Origin: Haloplanus sp. XH21
GTDB lineage: Archaea; Halobacteriota; Halobacteria; Halobacteriales; Haloferacaceae
Assembly (NCBI RefSeq): GCF_023276355.1
Contig: NZ_JALLPL010000001.1
Location: 806,001 to 870,000, forward strand
Direction: 5' to 3'
DNA: 64,000 bases
Below the pieces are notes generated by a model. The model saw only the letters and a program-made list of their open reading frames with translations, did not search any database and had not been told where the DNA came from. Positions 40,137 to 47,684 of this stretch are shown here, one piece after another (position 1 is the stretch's first letter; each line of letters opens with the position of its first letter). The translations under genes and the position numbers were made by a program.

Positions 40137-40217
40137 GACGGAGTATCGTCACTGTCTCCCGGTGGGTCGCCAAGACGGTCCCGCGAACCACCGGTACTGA
40201 CTGCCGATAAACCGTAT
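40137..40217. repeat. Palindromic intergenic repeat, copy 3
   Basis: An 81-bp palindrome directly after the helicase stop. The left end GACGGAGTATCGTCACTG has drifted, the inner stem CCGGTGGGTCGCC faces GCGAACCACCGG, the loop AAGACGGTCC is the same as in copy 1, and the right end is CGATAAACCGTAT. It separates the helicase gene from the iron-linked glycosyltransferase gene. Confidence 0.82.
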
Positions 40218-40246
40218 GAGGCGGATCGCCGAAGAACGACAGGTAC

Positions 40247-40262
40247 TTTAGGCCGCCCTAAA
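40247..40262. promoter_or_regulatory. 16-bp palindromic operator, likely iron-responsive (DtxR-type)
   Basis: TTTAGGCCGCCCTAAA is a near-perfect palindrome (TTTAGG facing CCTAAA) overlapping the only TATA-like sequence (TACTTTAGG) and ending 11 bases before the ATG of the RGP-like gene. The reverse complement of this exact sequence occurs at the Fe(III) transporter promoter at 41700-41715. DtxR-family iron repressors bind related TTAGG...CCTAA palindromes, so iron repression is inferred. Confidence 0.7.
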
Positions 40263-40273
40263 GATTGGCGGGC

Positions 40274-41437
40274 ATGAGTGCAGATGTCTGCGTAATCATC
40301 CCGACGATCAGGGAGTACGAATGCGTGCGGTCGTACGTCGCGAACGCCGAGAAGCACGGGTTCGATACGGACCGACTGGAGTTCGTCCTGGTGACCGAGG
40401 ATCACTGTCCGACCGACGACATGCAAGCCATGCTCGACGACCTGGGCGTCGAGGGCGAGGTGTTCGATGGGAGTCGTCGCGAGGAGTGGATGGAAGCCAA
40501 CGATGTCGGCGACTACACCCACCTGATTCCGGCGCGGAGCCACGCCCAGACGAGTTTCGGCCTCCTGTACCTCTGGGCCCACGACCACCCCTACGCCGTC
40601 TTCATCGACGACGACACCCTCCCCCACGAGGACGTGGACTTCTTCGGCACGCACATGCGGAATCTGACCGAGGAGCGCACCGTCGAATCCGTGCGGTCGG
40701 ACGAGAACTGGGTGAACGTGCTCTATCACGCCGCCGACGAACACGGTCTCTACCCCCGCGGCTACCCCTACTCGGCGATGGACGAGACGGTCGAAACGGG
40801 CGAGACCACGGTCGACGACGTGGTCGCCTCCCAGGGCCTGTGGACGAACGTTCCCGACCTGGACGCGGTGCGCATCCTGATGGACGGCGACCTGCAGGGA
40901 CAGGCCGAGACGCGCCTGACCGCCGCCGACTTCGGCCCCGACTTCGTGGCCGAATCCGGCCAGTATCTCACCGTCTGCTCCATGAACCTCGCCTTCCGCC
41001 GGGAGGTCGTCCCCGCGTTCTACCAGCTACCGATGGACGACAACGAGTGGTCGGTCGGTCGCTTCGACGACATCTGGAGCGGCGTCTTCCTCAAACGCGC
41101 GGCCGATCTGCTCGACAAGCAGATCGTTACGGGCGACCCGCTCTGTGAGCACAACAAGGCGCCTCGGTCGACGTTCGACGACCTCCACAACGAGGTGGCG
41201 GGGCTGGAGCTCAACGAACACCTGTGGGAACTCATCGACGACGCGGCGCCGTCGGTCGGCGAGGACGAGGACCCGTACGCCGTCATCTTCGAGTCGATGG
41301 CCGACCGACTCGTGGACGCCGAGGCCGACTACCGCAACGGCGACTTCCTCGCTCACGTCGGTACGTACATGCACGACTGGCTCGACTGTCTCGACGAACT
41401 CCAGACCGCCCAGCGGTCGGTCCCCGCCGACGACTGA
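40274..41437 (+). CDS. RGP/UDP-arabinopyranose mutase-like glycosyltransferase (GT75-like)
   Basis: A 387-aa soluble protein resembling plant reversibly glycosylated polypeptides/UDP-arabinopyranose mutases. It has an N-terminal GT-A-like strand VCVIIPTIREYECVRSYV, the acidic metal site VFIDDDTLPHED, SQGLWTNVPDLDAVRILMDG (matching the plant GLW-N-PDYDA block), VCSMNLAFRREVVPAFY and VGRFDDIWSGVFLKRAAD (matching MNLAF and GRYDDMWAG), then a histidine-containing CEHNKAPRSTF. Haloarchaeal members are often labelled alpha-1,4-glucan-protein synthase. ATG 40274 is the start because the shared palindrome lies just before it. Its likely iron control is unexplained; UDP-sugar mutase or self-glycosylation is inferred. 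Confidence 0.75.
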   Translation: MSADVCVIIPTIREYECVRSYVANAEKHGFDTDRLEFVLVTEDHCPTDDMQAMLDDLGVEGEVFDGSRREEWMEANDVGDYTHLIPARSHAQTSFGLLYLWAHDHPYAVFIDDDTLPHEDVDFFGTHMRNLTEERTVESVRSDENWVNVLYHAADEHGLYPRGYPYSAMDETVETGETTVDDVVASQGLWTNVPDLDAVRILMDGDLQGQAETRLTAADFGPDFVAESGQYLTVCSMNLAFRREVVPAFYQLPMDDNEWSVGRFDDIWSGVFLKRAADLLDKQIVTGDPLCEHNKAPRSTFDDLHNEVAGLELNEHLWELIDDAAPSVGEDEDPYAVIFESMADRLVDAEADYRNGDFLAHVGTYMHDWLDCLDELQTAQRSVPADD

Positions 41438-41443
41438 ACGATT

Positions 41444-41527
41444 TATACGGGTTCTTGTCCCTGTCTTCCGGTGGATCGCCACGACGGATCGGCGACCTAC
41501 CGGTACTGACTTCCAATAAACCGTATT
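41444..41527. repeat. Palindromic intergenic repeat, copy 4
   Basis: An 84-bp member of the palindrome family just after the RGP-like gene. Left end TATACGGGTTCTTGTCC faces right end CCAATAAACCGTATTA; inner stem TTCCGGTGGATCGCC faces GGCGACCTACCGGTA; the loop is ACGACGGATC. Copies 3 and 4 thus flank the RGP-like gene on both sides in the same orientation. Confidence 0.83.
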
Positions 41528-41535
41528 AGAGCACC

Positions 41536-41660
41536 CACCCACCGCGAACGAACGGAGTGAGCGGCCAAGAGCCGACCAACGGGAGGCTCGCAGGCTTTTG
41601 GTCGAGCTTTTGTCAGGGAGCGAGCGACCGCGGCAAAAGGGCGGTCTGCGGTGCGAATCT
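41536..41660. repeat. Imperfect repeat block (TTTTGG...AGCTTTTG type)
   Basis: A block between palindrome copy 4 and the transporter promoter contains GAACGGAGTGAGCGGCC, CGACCAACGGGAGGC, GGCTTTTGGTCGAGCTTTTG, AGCGAGCGACCG and GGCAAAAGGGCGG. Parts of it recur in the insert after ilvD (53063-53160), including a TTTTGG...AGCTTTTG core and a closing AAAAGG. I recall similar blocks in haloarchaeal intergenic DNA but cannot verify this here. No gene is seen in the stretch. Confidence 0.5.
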
Positions 41661-41690
41661 ACCGTGACCCCCGCTAACCGAACCGGCAAG

Positions 41691-41715
41691 TATAAGTGTT
41701 TTAGGGCGGCCTAAA
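41691..41715 (+). promoter_or_regulatory. Fe(III) transporter promoter with 16-bp operator
   Basis: TATA element TATAAGT at 41691-41697 lies about 27 bases before the ATG at 41722, so transcription likely starts at or next to the start codon. The palindrome TTTAGGGCGGCCTAAA at 41700-41715 sits between TATA and the start. A bound repressor would block initiation. It is the exact reverse complement of the site before the RGP-like gene. Confidence 0.75.
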
Positions 41716-41721
41716 TCACGT

Positions 41722-42867
41722 ATGGACGAGACTCGAAGCTCCCGCCGGCGCATTCTGCGGGTTGGAGGCGCTGCTGGACTGGCATCGATCGCGGGCTGTA
41801 ACGGGATCCTCGGCGGTGGCGGCACCGACGACTCGGGTGGCGATACCGTCGGACAGATCGGCTCCGGTCGGTCGCCGTTCGGCGATCGCGACATCTCGGG
41901 CGGCACGTCGATGTCCGAGATGCCGGATCTGAGCGGCGAGTTGACGCTCTATTCGGGTCGAGGCGAACCGCTGGTTGGGCGCCTCGTCAGCTTCATCGAG
42001 GAACTCTACCCCGATTTGACCATCCGACCGCGGTACAACTCGGCGTCGGAACTGGTGAACCAGATAGCGACGGAAGGCGAGGGCAGTCCGGCCGATGTCT
42101 TCTTCTCGGTCAACGCCGGCTCGCTCGGCGCGCTCAAGGACCGCGGACGGACGACCGAACTCCCGACCGAGGTCCTCGATATGGTGCCCGATCAGTTCCA
42201 CGACCCCGACGGCACCTGGATCGGCACGTCCGGGCGCGCGCGAACGATCCCCTACAACACGAACGCGCTCTCGGAGTCGGACATCCCCGACGACATCTTC
42301 GCGTTCCCCGAGACCGAGGCGTTCCGGGACGCCATCGGCTGTGCCCCCTCGTACAGTTCGTTCCAGGCGTTCATCACCGCGATGCGTGTCCTCAACGGCG
42401 AGGAGGAGACCCGCCAGTGGCTGAACGAGATGCAGGAACTCGGTCTGCAGCACAACTACGCCGACGAGTTCCTGGTCAGTCAGGCGGTCGCCAACGGCGA
42501 GCTCCGCGCTGGCTTCGCCAACCACTACTACATCCAGCGCGTCCTCGCTGGCCGCCCCGACGCCCCCATCGCCACCGCATTCACCGAGGGCGACGCGGGC
42601 GCCATCTTCAACGTCGCCGGCGCGGCCGCGCTCGATACGGCCGAGGACCCCGACCTCGCGGCCGACTTCGTGCGCCACCTGCTGTCGGCCGAGGCCCAGG
42701 ACTACTTCGCGCGGGAGACCTTCGAGTACCCGCTGGTGCCGGGCGTCGATCCGATCGGCCGTCTCCCCAGTATCGATGAATTGAACCCGCCCGAAGGATT
42801 AGACCTCACTCAGTTGTCCGACCTGGAGGGGACGGTGACCCTCCTTCGCGATGTCGGAATGCTCTGA
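41722..42867 (+). CDS. Fe(III) ABC transporter substrate-binding lipoprotein (Fbp/SfuA-like)
   Basis: Binding protein that captures ferric iron outside the cell. The 381-aa precursor has a twin-arginine signal (SSRRRILRVGG) and a lipobox ending ASIAGC with Cys26 as the lipid anchor, then a Gly/Asp-rich linker. The family 1 binding fold follows: GELTLYSGRGEPLVGRLVSF, QIATEGEGSPADVFFSVNAG, SGRARTIPYNT and AGFANHYYIQRVL, the latter holding the tandem tyrosines (NHYY) that bind Fe(III) in FbpA proteins. First gene of a three-gene unit, with the operator at its promoter. Confidence 0.9.
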   Translation: MDETRSSRRRILRVGGAAGLASIAGCNGILGGGGTDDSGGDTVGQIGSGRSPFGDRDISGGTSMSEMPDLSGELTLYSGRGEPLVGRLVSFIEELYPDLTIRPRYNSASELVNQIATEGEGSPADVFFSVNAGSLGALKDRGRTTELPTEVLDMVPDQFHDPDGTWIGTSGRARTIPYNTNALSESDIPDDIFAFPETEAFRDAIGCAPSYSSFQAFITAMRVLNGEEETRQWLNEMQELGLQHNYADEFLVSQAVANGELRAGFANHYYIQRVLAGRPDAPIATAFTEGDAGAIFNVAGAAALDTAEDPDLAADFVRHLLSAEAQDYFARETFEYPLVPGVDPIGRLPSIDELNPPEGLDLTQLSDLEGTVTLLRDVGML

Positions 42868-42877
42868 GACACACCCC

Positions 42878-44479
42878 ATGGCTGCCGACCACCACACCAG
42901 CAACGACGCTCACGAGGACCTCCCCTTACCGACGACGATAGCCAGCGGCGCTATCGCCGCGGCGGTCCTCCTGCCGCTGGTGTGGCTGGTCCGAACCGCG
43001 CTCGACGTGGGGTTGGCGGAGGCGATCGCCATCTCCACGCGGCCTGCGACCCTCCAGGTGTTCGTCAACAGCGCCGCCCTCGTCGTCACGGTCACCGTCG
43101 CGTCGGTACTCATCGGCGTGCCGCTCGCGTATCTGACGGTGCGGACGGACCTCCCCTTCCGCCGGGCGTTCACCGTCGCCGTCTCCCTCCCGCTCGTCAT
43201 CCCGAGCTACGTCGGCGCCTTCGCCTTCGTCTCGGCGTTCGGCCCACAGGGTGCCTTCCAGCGACTGCTCGCTCCCCTGGGCGTCGAGCGACTTCCCGAG
43301 ATATACGGCTTCCCCGGCGCCGCGCTGGTCGTGACGCTCTACACCTACCCCTACGTGTTCATCACGACCCGCGCGGCGCTGAAGTCGCTCGATACGACGC
43401 TCATCGACGCCGCGCGGACGCTCGAACACTCCCGGTGGGAGGCGTTCCGCCGCGTTACGATCCCCCAGATTCGGCCGGCCGTCACCGCCGGCGCTCTTCT
43501 GGTCGCGCTGTACACCCTCTCCGATTTCGGGACGCCCGCGATCATGCAGTTCGACGCCTTCACGCGGGTCATCTACGTCGAGTTCACGAGTTTCGGCCGT
43601 GACGTGGCGTCCCTGCTCTCCCTGCAACTCGTCGCCGTCACCCTGCTTATCCTCGGCCTGGAGTCGCGCGTCCGGGGCAACGAACCGCTGTACGCCGGGC
43701 GCCAGGGCGGGCGGACGAGCGGCACCGTCTCCCTCGGCCGGTGGAAGTACGTCGCCTGCGCGGCCTGTCTGGCCATCGCGGGACTCGCCTTGCTCGTGCC
43801 CCTCGGCATCCTGCTGACGTGGCTGACGCGGATCAACACCGATGTCGGGAGCGCGCTCGCGTTCCAGCCCGCGTACGCGCTCAACTCCATCGGCGTCTCG
43901 GCGGCGGCCGCGCTCGTCGCCACCGTCGTCGGCCTGCCCGTCGCCTATCTCGCCGCGGGCTATCGCTCCCGCCTGGCCGACGCCTTCGAGCGCGCGACCT
44001 ACGTCGGCTACGCCGTTCCTGGCGTCGTCCTCGGCCTCGCGCTCGTCTATCTCGGCACGTCGTACGCCCAACCCATCTACCAGACCCTCTACCTGCTCGT
44101 GGCCGCGTACGTCATTCGGTTTCTGCCCCAGGCCGTCGGTTCGATGCGAGCGTCCTTTCTCCGGGTCAACCCCGCGCTTCCCGAGGCGGCGCGGACGCTC
44201 GGCCGCACCTCCTTCGGTGCCTTTCGCGCGGTGACGCTCCCGCTCATCGCGCCCGGCCTGCTCGGCGGCGCGGCGCTGGTCTTTCTCACCACCATGAAGG
44301 AACTGCCGGCGACGCTGCTGCTCCGCCCGTCCGGGTTCAAGACGCTCGTGACCCACATCTGGACGGCGACCGAATCCGGCTACTACGGCCACGCCGCGGT
44401 GCCGGCGCTCATTCTCCTTTTCGTCTCCGGGCTCTCGATGCTGGTGATCCTCACTCAGGAGGGATACGATGTCCAATAA
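42878..44479 (+). CDS. Fe(III) ABC transporter permease (FbpB-like, duplicated)
   Basis: A 533-aa permease with about 12 membrane helices, made of two homologous halves as in FbpB/SfuB. Each half has an EAA loop: DAARTLEHSRWEAFRRVTIP (about 185-205) and EAARTLGRTSFGAFRAVTLP (about 440-460), which contact the ATPase. ATG 42878 lies 10 bp after the binding-protein stop; an ATG at 42851 within the previous gene is possible. It overlaps the ATPase gene by 11 bp. Confidence 0.93.
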   Translation: MAADHHTSNDAHEDLPLPTTIASGAIAAAVLLPLVWLVRTALDVGLAEAIAISTRPATLQVFVNSAALVVTVTVASVLIGVPLAYLTVRTDLPFRRAFTVAVSLPLVIPSYVGAFAFVSAFGPQGAFQRLLAPLGVERLPEIYGFPGAALVVTLYTYPYVFITTRAALKSLDTTLIDAARTLEHSRWEAFRRVTIPQIRPAVTAGALLVALYTLSDFGTPAIMQFDAFTRVIYVEFTSFGRDVASLLSLQLVAVTLLILGLESRVRGNEPLYAGRQGGRTSGTVSLGRWKYVACAACLAIAGLALLVPLGILLTWLTRINTDVGSALAFQPAYALNSIGVSAAAALVATVVGLPVAYLAAGYRSRLADAFERATYVGYAVPGVVLGLALVYLGTSYAQPIYQTLYLLVAAYVIRFLPQAVGSMRASFLRVNPALPEAARTLGRTSFGAFRAVTLPLIAPGLLGGAALVFLTTMKELPATLLLRPSGFKTLVTHIWTATESGYYGHAAVPALILLFVSGLSMLVILTQEGYDVQ

Positions 44480-45620
44480 GACGATGCACGCAACCGACGA
44501 ACGGATGGATGGCTCGACGGAACCGACGGCGGACGACACGCCCGTCCTCGAACTCGACGAGGTGGACAAGGACTACGGCCCCGAACGCGTCATCGAAGGC
44601 CTCTCGCTGTCGGTCCACGAGGGAGAGATCCTCACCCTGCTCGGCCCCTCTGGCTGCGGGAAGACGACCACCCTCCGGCTGATCGCCGGCCTGGAACAAC
44701 CCGACGCCGGGCGGGTCGCGCTCAACGGTAACCCGGTGTCGAACGCGGACCGCTTCGTCGCTCCCGAGGACCGCGGTGTCGGCGTCGTCTTCCAGGAGTT
44801 CGCGCTCTTTCCGCACCTGACCGCCGCCGAGAACGTCGGCTTCGGCCTGGAGGACTGGGATGCCGACGCCCGCGAGGAACGCATCGACGACCTGCTGGAC
44901 CTCGTCGGTCTGGAGACACAGGGTGATTCTTACCCGGACGAACTCTCCGGCGGGCAACAGCAGCGGGTGGCGCTCGCCCGGTCGCTCGCGCCCGAACCCG
45001 ACGTGCTCCTCCTCGACGAACCCTTCTCGAATCTCGATGTCGACCTCCGGGTGCAGATGCGCGAGGAGGTCCGCCGCATCCTCAAGGAGACGGGCGTCAC
45101 CGCCGTCTCCGTCACCCACGACCAGGAGGAGGCGCTGTCGATCAGCGACCGGGTGGCCGTCATGAACGACGGCCGGATCGAACAGGTCGGCGACCCCGAA
45201 CAGGTGTTCCAGCAGCCCGAATCCCGCTTCGTCGCCGGCTTCCTCGGCCACGCCAGCTTCCTCCCCGGCTACGTCCACGGTGGCGAGGTGACGACCGGTC
45301 TCGGCCCCATCCCGCGCGACCAGATCAACGGCCTCGCGGGCACCTACGACCGGACGCGCATCGACGTACTGGTCCGCCCGGACGACATCCGCGCCGTCCC
45401 CGTCGAGGGCGAGGCCGACGGTCGGATCGTCGCCCGTCGCTACCTCGGCCCGACCATCCTCTACGAGGTCCGGCTGGACGACGACACCACCGTCCAGTGT
45501 ATGCACAACCACGACGAGTCTATCCCGCTCGACACCCGCGTCCGCATCGAACTCGATGCCGACCACGAACTCGCGTGGTTCCCGGGTGATCAGCGGCCCG
45601 AAGACGGAGACGCCGAATAA
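44469..45620 (+). CDS. Fe(III) ABC transporter ATPase (FbpC-like)
   Basis: The 383-aa ATPase powering the permease. Walker A GPSGCGKTT, Q-loop VFQEFALFPHLTA, signature LSGGQQQRVALARSLA, Walker B VLLLDEPFSNLD and switch His in VSVTHDQEEAL are all intact. The C-terminal third is a TOBE-type domain (RIDVLVRPDDIRAVPVEGEA; ARRYLGPTILYEVRLDDDTT). It ends four bases before the GTG of the next, apparently unrelated membrane gene, so that gene could be co-transcribed. Confidence 0.93.
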   Translation: MSNKTMHATDERMDGSTEPTADDTPVLELDEVDKDYGPERVIEGLSLSVHEGEILTLLGPSGCGKTTTLRLIAGLEQPDAGRVALNGNPVSNADRFVAPEDRGVGVVFQEFALFPHLTAAENVGFGLEDWDADAREERIDDLLDLVGLETQGDSYPDELSGGQQQRVALARSLAPEPDVLLLDEPFSNLDVDLRVQMREEVRRILKETGVTAVSVTHDQEEALSISDRVAVMNDGRIEQVGDPEQVFQQPESRFVAGFLGHASFLPGYVHGGEVTTGLGPIPRDQINGLAGTYDRTRIDVLVRPDDIRAVPVEGEADGRIVARRYLGPTILYEVRLDDDTTVQCMHNHDESIPLDTRVRIELDADHELAWFPGDQRPEDGDAE

Positions 45621-45623
45621 TCC

Positions 45624-47684
45624 GTGCCGCGCCGCCGTGACCAACTGCTGGCCGCCGCACTCGTCGCCCTCGCCGGCGCCGTCGTCTACTGGTTCGCGGT
45701 CGACCTCTTTCCGTACCACTCCGTCAACGACGACGAAGGCGTCTACCTCATGCAGGCGGCCATGCTGCTCGAAGGCGACCTGTTTCTCTACCCCGGCGCG
45801 CTCGGTGACCTGGTGCGGCCGTGGTTTTTCGTCAGCGACACGACCGGCGGGACGCTCCGCTACTACTCGAAATACTCCCCCGTCGCGGCGGGCGTCTTCG
45901 CTGTCGGCAAACTGCTCGGCGACGCGAACCTCTCGCTCGGCCTCGTCGCCGCCGGCAACGCCGCACTCGTCTACGGCCTGACGACCGCTGCCTTCGACCG
46001 CCGGACCGGTCGGCTGTCGGTCGTCGCGCTCGTCGCCACCCCGCTGTTCCTGTTCACTTCCGCCGTCTTCCTCTCGTACGCCCCGGCGACGCTCCTGAAT
46101 CTCGCCTTCGCGCTGGCGTACGTTCGGACGATGCGTCAGGACTCGCCGCGCTGGGGCCTCGTCGCCGGCACGGCTATCGGCCTCGCCTTCTTCGCTCGCT
46201 CGTACACCGCCGTCCTGTTCGCCACGCCGTTCATCGCCCACGCCATCGGGTCCCTCTGGTGGACGTGGGGCGACGACCGGTTCCGCCCGACGCTCGTTCG
46301 CCTGCTGGCCGTCGCCGCCGCCGGCCTCGCCGGCGTCGCCATCACCCTCGGCTACAACGCGATCGTGACCGGTGATCCCCTGCTTTTCCCGTACAAGGCC
46401 TTCGGGCCGGAGGACGGCATCGGCTTCGGTCATCACGAACTGCTGGGCTACGACCGGATATACTCGCCGGCGCTCGCCGCCGAGACGACCGTCCGACTGC
46501 TCGACATCCTGACGACGGAGTGGACGGTCGCCGGCCCCGTCGGCACGCTGCTCGCCCTGATCGGCCTCTCGGAACTGCCGACCGACCGTGACGCCATCGC
46601 CGATCCCTCTCTCTCCCCTCCGGCGCTTCGGGTCGTCGTCGCCGGCCTCGCTCCCGCCGTCGTCCTCGGCAACGCCTACTTCTGGGGAACGCTCAACGGC
46701 CTCAACAACGGCCTGATCGGTCTGCTCGGGCCGTACTACCACTTCGACCTGCTCCTCCCCCTCTCCGCGTTCGCCGCCGCCGGGGTGTTCGTCGTCTGGC
46801 GACGCGCCCGGGCCGCGACCGCGGGCCTCGACTCCCGGTACCGTCGGGTCGCCCTCGCCGCGGTACTGGTCGTCGGTCTCGGCGTCGGCGGCGTCGCTGG
46901 CGTCGACGCCGTCAGCGACCCCTACGACGAGAACCGACTGCGCACCGCGAACCTCGCCGACACCTACGCGCCCTTCGAGGGGCAGTCGTTCACGAACGCC
47001 GTCGTGTTCGTCCCCGAACCCTACGGCGATTGGATCCAGCACCCCTTCCAGTACCTGCGGAACGACCCCGGCCTCGACGGCGATGTCGTCTACGTCCGCA
47101 ACGAGGGCGATGTCGAGCGGTTCGAGACCATCGACGCGACCGGTGACCGCCGACCCTACCGCTTCACCTACCGGGGCGAGTGGGAGGGAGCGGTGACAGG
47201 CGTCGACCCGGCGCTGGTACCTCTGTCGGTCGAGCGCGGTGACCGCGTGACGGCGACGACGACGCTCGGCGTGCCCGCGCGGGCGACCCACGCACGGGCG
47301 ACGGTCGTCACCGAAGCCGGCACCGCCCGATACGACATCGGCCGCGTCGACGGTCCCGTGACCGTCGACTGGACCATCGGCGGCGACAGCGTCGGTGCGA
47401 CCACCCTCTCCAACGAGAGCGCGCCGCTTCCGTCGGGCGTGAGCGAGGTGACGCTCCGCGTCACGTTCGTCGAACCGCAGGGGACGACCGTCACCTACCG
47501 ACAGACGGCGAGCGTCGAACGGACCGGCGACAGCGTCCGGGTCATCTGGCCGCCGGAGACGCGGGTCTGTTCGCTCACGACCGACTGCGGGTCCGAGGGG
47601 ACGTACGTCGGCCCCGACGGCGACTACGTCTCGGGCGTGTCGGTGGAGACGTCGGCGACGGCGCGCAACGACAGCGCGGCGTGA
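45624..47684 (+). CDS. GT-C-like multi-spanning membrane protein with outer beta domain
   Basis: A 686-aa membrane protein. The first about 430 residues form about ten helices with an early outer loop FPYHSVNDDEGVYLMQAAML; an Asp-Asp-Glu at this position is typical of GT-C/GT39-type glycosyltransferases that use lipid-linked sugars. The last 250 residues are an outside domain rich in beta strands (GEWEGAVTGVDPALVPLSVE; VSEVTLRVTFVEPQGTTVTY). Haloarchaea have related proteins of unknown activity. The start is GTG 45624, four bases after the ATPase stop, so it may belong to the iron operon; a link to iron is not evident from the protein. Confidence 0.65.
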   Translation: MPRRRDQLLAAALVALAGAVVYWFAVDLFPYHSVNDDEGVYLMQAAMLLEGDLFLYPGALGDLVRPWFFVSDTTGGTLRYYSKYSPVAAGVFAVGKLLGDANLSLGLVAAGNAALVYGLTTAAFDRRTGRLSVVALVATPLFLFTSAVFLSYAPATLLNLAFALAYVRTMRQDSPRWGLVAGTAIGLAFFARSYTAVLFATPFIAHAIGSLWWTWGDDRFRPTLVRLLAVAAAGLAGVAITLGYNAIVTGDPLLFPYKAFGPEDGIGFGHHELLGYDRIYSPALAAETTVRLLDILTTEWTVAGPVGTLLALIGLSELPTDRDAIADPSLSPPALRVVVAGLAPAVVLGNAYFWGTLNGLNNGLIGLLGPYYHFDLLLPLSAFAAAGVFVVWRRARAATAGLDSRYRRVALAAVLVVGLGVGGVAGVDAVSDPYDENRLRTANLADTYAPFEGQSFTNAVVFVPEPYGDWIQHPFQYLRNDPGLDGDVVYVRNEGDVERFETIDATGDRRPYRFTYRGEWEGAVTGVDPALVPLSVERGDRVTATTTLGVPARATHARATVVTEAGTARYDIGRVDGPVTVDWTIGGDSVGATTLSNESAPLPSGVSEVTLRVTFVEPQGTTVTYRQTASVERTGDSVRVIWPPETRVCSLTTDCGSEGTYVGPDGDYVSGVSVETSATARNDSAA

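Follow-up and report, generated by a model that had tools for sequence, protein, structure and literature searches.

A class-wide DtxR-type, probably iron-responsive operator of haloarchaea precedes ferric-uptake and predicted glycan-assembly genes

Actinobacterial DtxR/IdeR operators are represented by TTAGGTTAGSCTAACCTAA and by the single-dimer site TTAGGNNNNCCTAA, a sequence of 14 bp put forward as the redefined DtxR/IdeR target (PMC8464063). In haloarchaea, the corresponding DtxR-family iron regulon is that of FerR/Idr, with Idr1 and Idr2 in Halobacterium, and for Hfx. volcanii a ferR regulon signal at the fhu operons is stated in PMC11349517, which cites Leyn and Rodionov 2015. Among the GT75 NDP-pyranose mutases, which include MtdL and the plant RGP/UAM proteins, the residues for Mn2+ and catalysis have been assigned in MtdL to Asp109-111, Arg159, Ser228, Arg257, Asp260 and His287 (PMC9937993). 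The locus described here, from Haloplanus sp. XH21, places a gene of this enzyme family next to a ferric transporter operon, each behind a DtxR-type palindrome. Its features in the window (the whole stretch of DNA analysed, 64 kb) are the following.

40244-40251: TATA-like TACTTTAG of the RGP promoter, overlapped by operator 1
40247-40262, no strand: operator 1, TTTAGGCCGCCCTAAA, 5' edge at -27 from the RGP ATG (40274)
40274-41437, + strand: RGP-like protein of family GT75, predicted NDP-pyranose mutase, 387 aa (Pfam PF03214)
41690-41696, + strand: TATA-like box GTATAAG of the fbp operon, from the sequence
41700-41715, no strand: operator 2, TTTAGGGCGGCCTAAA, 5' edge at -22 from the fbpA ATG (41722), directly 3' of the TATA box
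41722-42867, + strand: FbpA-type ferric-binding lipoprotein, 381 aa, with twin Tyr Y269-Y270 (SBP_bac_6)
42851-44479, + strand: FbpB-type ABC permease (BPD_transp_1, two stretches)
44469-45620, + strand: FbpC-type ABC ATPase with TOBE domain (ABC_tran and TOBE_2)
45624-47684, + strand: GT-C membrane glycosyltransferase (PMT_2 / DUF7846 in Pfam), starting 4 bp after fbpC

Two copies of TTTAGGN4CCTAAA lie in the window, against 0.04 expected from shuffled sequence, and a search of the window allowing two mismatches yielded none beyond operators 1 and 2. The original prediction had described them as exact reverse complements of each other at two adjacent promoters, the first over the TATA-like box and the second between TATA and start, and the sequence bears out both the positions and the placement. 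It had also taken the 16-base identity to be far beyond chance. This identity is not itself selected: the N4 spacers of the RGP and fbpA sites are equal or reverse-complementary in none of 68 orthologous pairs; the exact match was thus rejected as meaningful. Selection acts on the 12 half-site bases only, the full 16-base identity being partly luck. Among orthologous promoters these 12 bases are nearly invariant, and the N4 varies freely with a lean to C..G. A known RNA element at the operator site was rejected as well, as the region has no match in Rfam.

A genome-wide search, as the original prediction had proposed, recovered 13 perfect TTTAGG-N4-CCTAAA sites in the 2.94-Mb genome (3 contigs) and none for the reversed control. 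The motif is present in 19 of 20 relatives, with 3–20 copies each. Outside the window, where genes at the motif sites were called with an ORF and composition script, the targets of iron type are three siderophore-type binding proteins (Peripla_BP_2), one of which heads an operon with FecCD (permease) and FecE (ATPase) components; together with the FbpA-type ferric-binding protein of the window, they give the enrichment at iron genes that had been anticipated. The siderophore/Fhu-type operons of this genome thus carry the motif, as expected for the haloarchaeal FerR/Idr regulon. A dolichyl-phosphate hexose transferase of family GT2 (NF041391, above cut-off) also lies behind the motif elsewhere in the genome. 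The other targets are a CARDB surface protein, a thioredoxin-reductase-like flavoprotein, a gluconate dehydrogenase subunit and a small DUF7331-like protein; the last two, along with a PAS kinase and a DUF5059 lipoprotein, are regulon members without an obvious iron role.

The haloarchaeal sites share with the actinobacterial operators the TTAGG/CCTAA half-site and the N4 spacing, and the initial reading of a DtxR-type TTAGG...CCTAA site agrees with the match of the motif to TTAGGNNNNCCTAA, the 14-bp target sequence that PMC8464063 proposes for DtxR/IdeR proteins. The same regulator family is encoded in this genome. Unlike the actinobacterial operators, the haloarchaeal site lacks the 19-bp double-dimer form, carries one extra T/A on each side, leans to C..G in its N4 and can occur in pairs spaced 36–37 bp around the TATA box. 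As an inverted repeat TTAGG-N4-CCTAA placed at the promoters of iron-uptake genes, it is a real, class-wide DtxR-type iron operator of a known kind. With the FerR/Idr regulon, as far as it is set out in the parts of PMC11349517 considered, it shares the DtxR-type signal before siderophore transporter operons and the link to iron. That the RGP and fbp units both answer to iron is well supported at the level of sequence comparison.

The Fe(III) transporter that the original prediction placed beside the second site finds support in the binding protein of the fbp operon. Its best solved relative is the ferric iron ABC transporter iron-binding protein 7w3w (208 bits), and Y269 and Y270, the counterparts of the paired iron-binding tyrosines of FbpA, are 100% conserved in 78 orthologues. 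Its predicted identity as an FbpA-type ferric-binding protein is well supported. The substrates suggested by NCBIfam names (aminoethylphosphonate, thiamine) all scored below cut-off and are superseded by the ferric-binding structures. The unit shares with FbpABC ferric ABC transporters the FbpA-like protein with invariant twin Tyr, the permease and the TOBE ATPase, but in about half of the haloarchaeal loci the GT-C gene stands directly after fbpA in place of fbpB/fbpC. In the window, the GT-C gene is the probable end of the operon behind operator 2.

In 10 of 11 promoters, the 5' edge of the site lies at -19 to -27 from the ATG, and the site as a rule follows a TATA-like box immediately. Only the dolichyl-phosphate hexose transferase gene departs from this, with its site at -47. 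Four promoters carry a second site 36–37 bp upstream, with the TATA box between the two and the distal site at -55 to -57. Haloarchaeal genes are mostly leaderless, and the site therefore lies where binding would block initiation. We consider it highly probable that ferric uptake and a module for glycan assembly are under the joint control of an iron repressor of DtxR type, the palindromes being its predicted operators. When iron is plentiful, a metal-loaded regulator dimer would sit on TTTAGG-N4-CCTAAA, over or just 3' of the TATA box, and prevent initiation by the basal factors or RNA polymerase. Iron shortage would release the regulator and allow expression of the GT75 gene, the fbpABC-GT-C operon and the siderophore-type transporters, such that low iron would switch on ferric uptake and the glycan-assembly pathway together. 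The GT2 site at -47 and the distal sites of the pairs, upstream of the TATA box, would also suit a low-iron activator in place of a high-iron repressor, and Schmid and colleagues reportedly described interlocking positive and negative DtxR loops in Halobacterium. Such an activator is nevertheless unlikely, since all the other promoters have the site over the TATA box or between it and the start, where binding normally blocks initiation.

One perfect operator pair, 36 bp apart, precedes only a 41-codon ORF (L024:4997-5048). Similar pairs in the congeners L139, L148, L154 and L162 precede a lipoprotein gene (DUF5059 in L162), and the pair in L024 is possibly an orphan left by gene loss.

The predicted binder clearly belongs to the DtxR class, with several paralogues as candidates. 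Three DtxR-family genes (PF01325/PF02742) are present in the genome, at C1:2006696, C1:2182218 and C1:1824964, and comprise a SirR-type gene with a FeoA domain, a suf-linked Cys-rich paralogue and a small gene in an iron operon. The case for the ubiquitous SirR-type regulator as the obvious binder is weakened by its own promoter: several SirR-type promoters carry the palindrome TTAGACNNGTCTAA or a close version, not TTTAGG..CCTAAA, so this candidate may not be the binder. The recognition-helix position equivalent to IdeR Gln43 is Ser in the SirR type and Glu in the other paralogues, which was taken as a lead only and rejected as proof of the binder, since Glu is also found in SloR. The small DtxR-like gene, which lies behind the motif in genomes G000 and G016, is third in the operon of one motif-preceded binding protein, which makes feedback of the regulon on a regulator probable. 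An operator code is suggested in which TTTAGG..CCTAAA marks the iron regulon and TTAGAC..GTCTAA the SirR-type regulator's own promoter. The palindrome near TTAGACNNGTCTAA, present in most of the SirR-type promoters compared (L132, L218-L229), resembles the iron operator in its outer letters and differs from it in the inner bases. At other places in the genomes, the TTAGACNNGTCTAA-type pattern shows no enrichment.

The nature of the signal bears on the same candidates. The DtxR family includes Mn sensors, with MntR, ScaR and SloR among the solved relatives, and GT75 enzymes use Mn2+. The paralogue beside the suf genes (L133:1243-1677), found in 10 of 10 genomes checked, has a Cys-rich C-terminus (CPDC..C) in place of FeoA and might sense an iron-sulphur cluster. 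These points would fit the operator of a DtxR-family protein that senses Mn, Zn or an iron-sulphur signal and not Fe(II) itself. We regard this as quite improbable, however, given that the regulated transporters are of ferric and siderophore types (FbpA, FecCD, Peripla_BP_2) and that none of the genes behind the 13 sites in this genome was seen to belong to a Mn or Zn transporter family.

The product of the first gene behind the operators matches PF03214 with 65.1 bits (cut-off 23.8), and the profile of haloarchaeal RGP proteins matches MtdL (7xpr/7yua, 102 bits) and a UDP-arabinopyranose mutase (8cid). Residues D112-D114, R162, S236, R263, D266 and H293 align with the MtdL residues for Mn2+ and catalysis and are invariant in 18 orthologues. 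The protein thus shares with the GT75 mutases the DDD motif and the auto-glycosylated Arg, and the equivalents of Ser228, Arg257, Asp260 and His287 are all kept (PMC9937993). As the catalytic residues of MtdL are retained in full, an NDP-pyranose mutase that makes an NDP-furanose sugar is the likely activity. In contrast to MtdL and plant RGP/UAM, the haloarchaeal genes belong to an iron regulon and adjoin the gene of a ferric-binding protein, and in the phylum sample the archaeal group is confined to Halobacteria: of 97 good-quality Halobacteriales genomes, 73 have RGP, and the other groups of the sample have none. The closest RGP orthologues are those of Haloplanus (85%).

The operator precedes RGP in 78 of 80 haloarchaeal orthologues, when no more than one mismatch is allowed and the 130 bp before the gene are considered. 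Species of Halorubrum, Natrinema and Haloarcula are over-represented, so the 80 loci do not count as independent events. Halocatena and YIM A00010, the only exceptions, have degenerate versions of the motif at the equivalent place. A second sample gave 29 of 30 genomes, and 850 kb of sequence around RGP orthologues contained 231 matches to the motif and none to its reverse. The conserved order is [op]-UPF0104-[op]-RGP-[op]-FbpA(BC)-GT-C, together with a convergent, operator-preceded dolichyl-phosphate hexose transferase. The FbpA gene follows RGP in 78/80 loci and the GT-C gene is in the same neighbourhood in 76/80; a UPF0104 gene stands before RGP in 38/80, and a convergent GT2 gene lies within reach in 31/80. 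In this genome, the only UPF0104 homologue near the cluster type has no operator and is a longer fusion of AglD-like form. The operator before fbpA is kept in 69 of 78 orthologous loci. In a few loci the fbpA site is lost and the RGP site kept, and in these RGP and fbpA are therefore probably co-transcribed from the RGP site. The adjacency of fbpA to RGP in 78/80 loci might suggest that the RGP-proximal site acts solely on the fbp operon or on some other neighbour, with control of RGP incidental, but this is very improbable, as each gene of the cluster, GT2 and UPF0104 included, usually has its own operator and the RGP site can outlast the fbpA site.

The GT2 gene has an operator of its own in five congeners and in one genome of another genus (G014). 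Among Haloplanus relatives, DUF7331-like genes too have their own operators; the protein is of 55 aa (CESCPGRTVFIESGNTDGWIASD, L028:5063-5230 and relatives), and its operator is perfect in several congeners.

By this conservation, the core of the iron regulon of haloarchaea includes four genes of glycan assembly, adjacent to one for a ferric-binding protein. From the conserved operators before UPF0104, RGP/GT75, FbpA/GT-C and the dolichyl-phosphate hexose transferase, joint induction at low iron is therefore predicted. Indirect experimental support comes from iron-starved Hfx. volcanii, whose most strongly induced proteins include HVO_1859 (11.6-fold), a UPF0104 protein and possible orthologue of the one in the cluster, and a GalE-type epimerase (PMC11349517). 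The parts of that paper considered mention none of RGP/GT75, GT-C, the dolichyl-phosphate hexose transferase and UPF0104 as members of the FerR/Idr regulon. The place of GT75, GT-C, GT2 and UPF0104 in the iron regulon is the unexpected part of these results and is not described in the literature examined, the tables of Leyn and Rodionov 2015 lying outside the comparison.

The association suggests that cells may couple iron supply to the building of surface sugars, and it gives a testable function to the archaeal GT75 enzyme, so far only a name. A further prediction is that the surface sugars of haloarchaea vary with iron supply; since ferric iron is poorly soluble, iron-dependent surface sugars would matter ecologically. 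A more specific scheme, which we offer tentatively and hold to be less probable than its opposite, is a class-wide, iron-gated glycosylation, in which starvation would lead GT75 to make an NDP-furanose, the dolichyl-phosphate hexose transferase and UPF0104 would load and move a lipid-linked sugar, and the PMT-like GT-C enzyme would attach it to surface proteins. Under this scheme, the glycan steps would be expressed with FbpA because the modified surface aids ferric capture or shields the exposed transporters.

A near-perfect palindromic repeat of about 84 bp (T-N-ATACGG...CCGTAT-N-A) lies beside the operators in two copies (40138-40220 and 41447-41529). There are at least 40 copies in this genome and 2–42 in 8 of 9 congeners searched, and none in five genomes of other families. 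Among 22 copies, 6 of 24 stem pairs are changed on both sides; all lie between genes, and the edge of the repeat is in many cases made up by the stop codon of the gene upstream. The region has no match in Rfam, and the repeat is a candidate MITE/REP-like element or two-way terminator. It was rejected as part of the switch, being a genus-restricted dispersed repeat absent from other operator-bearing families. A second dispersed repeat, of the GAACGAACGGAGTGAGC... type, occupies 41537-41650, between the palindromic repeat and the fbpA promoter, and has at least four further copies in the genome.
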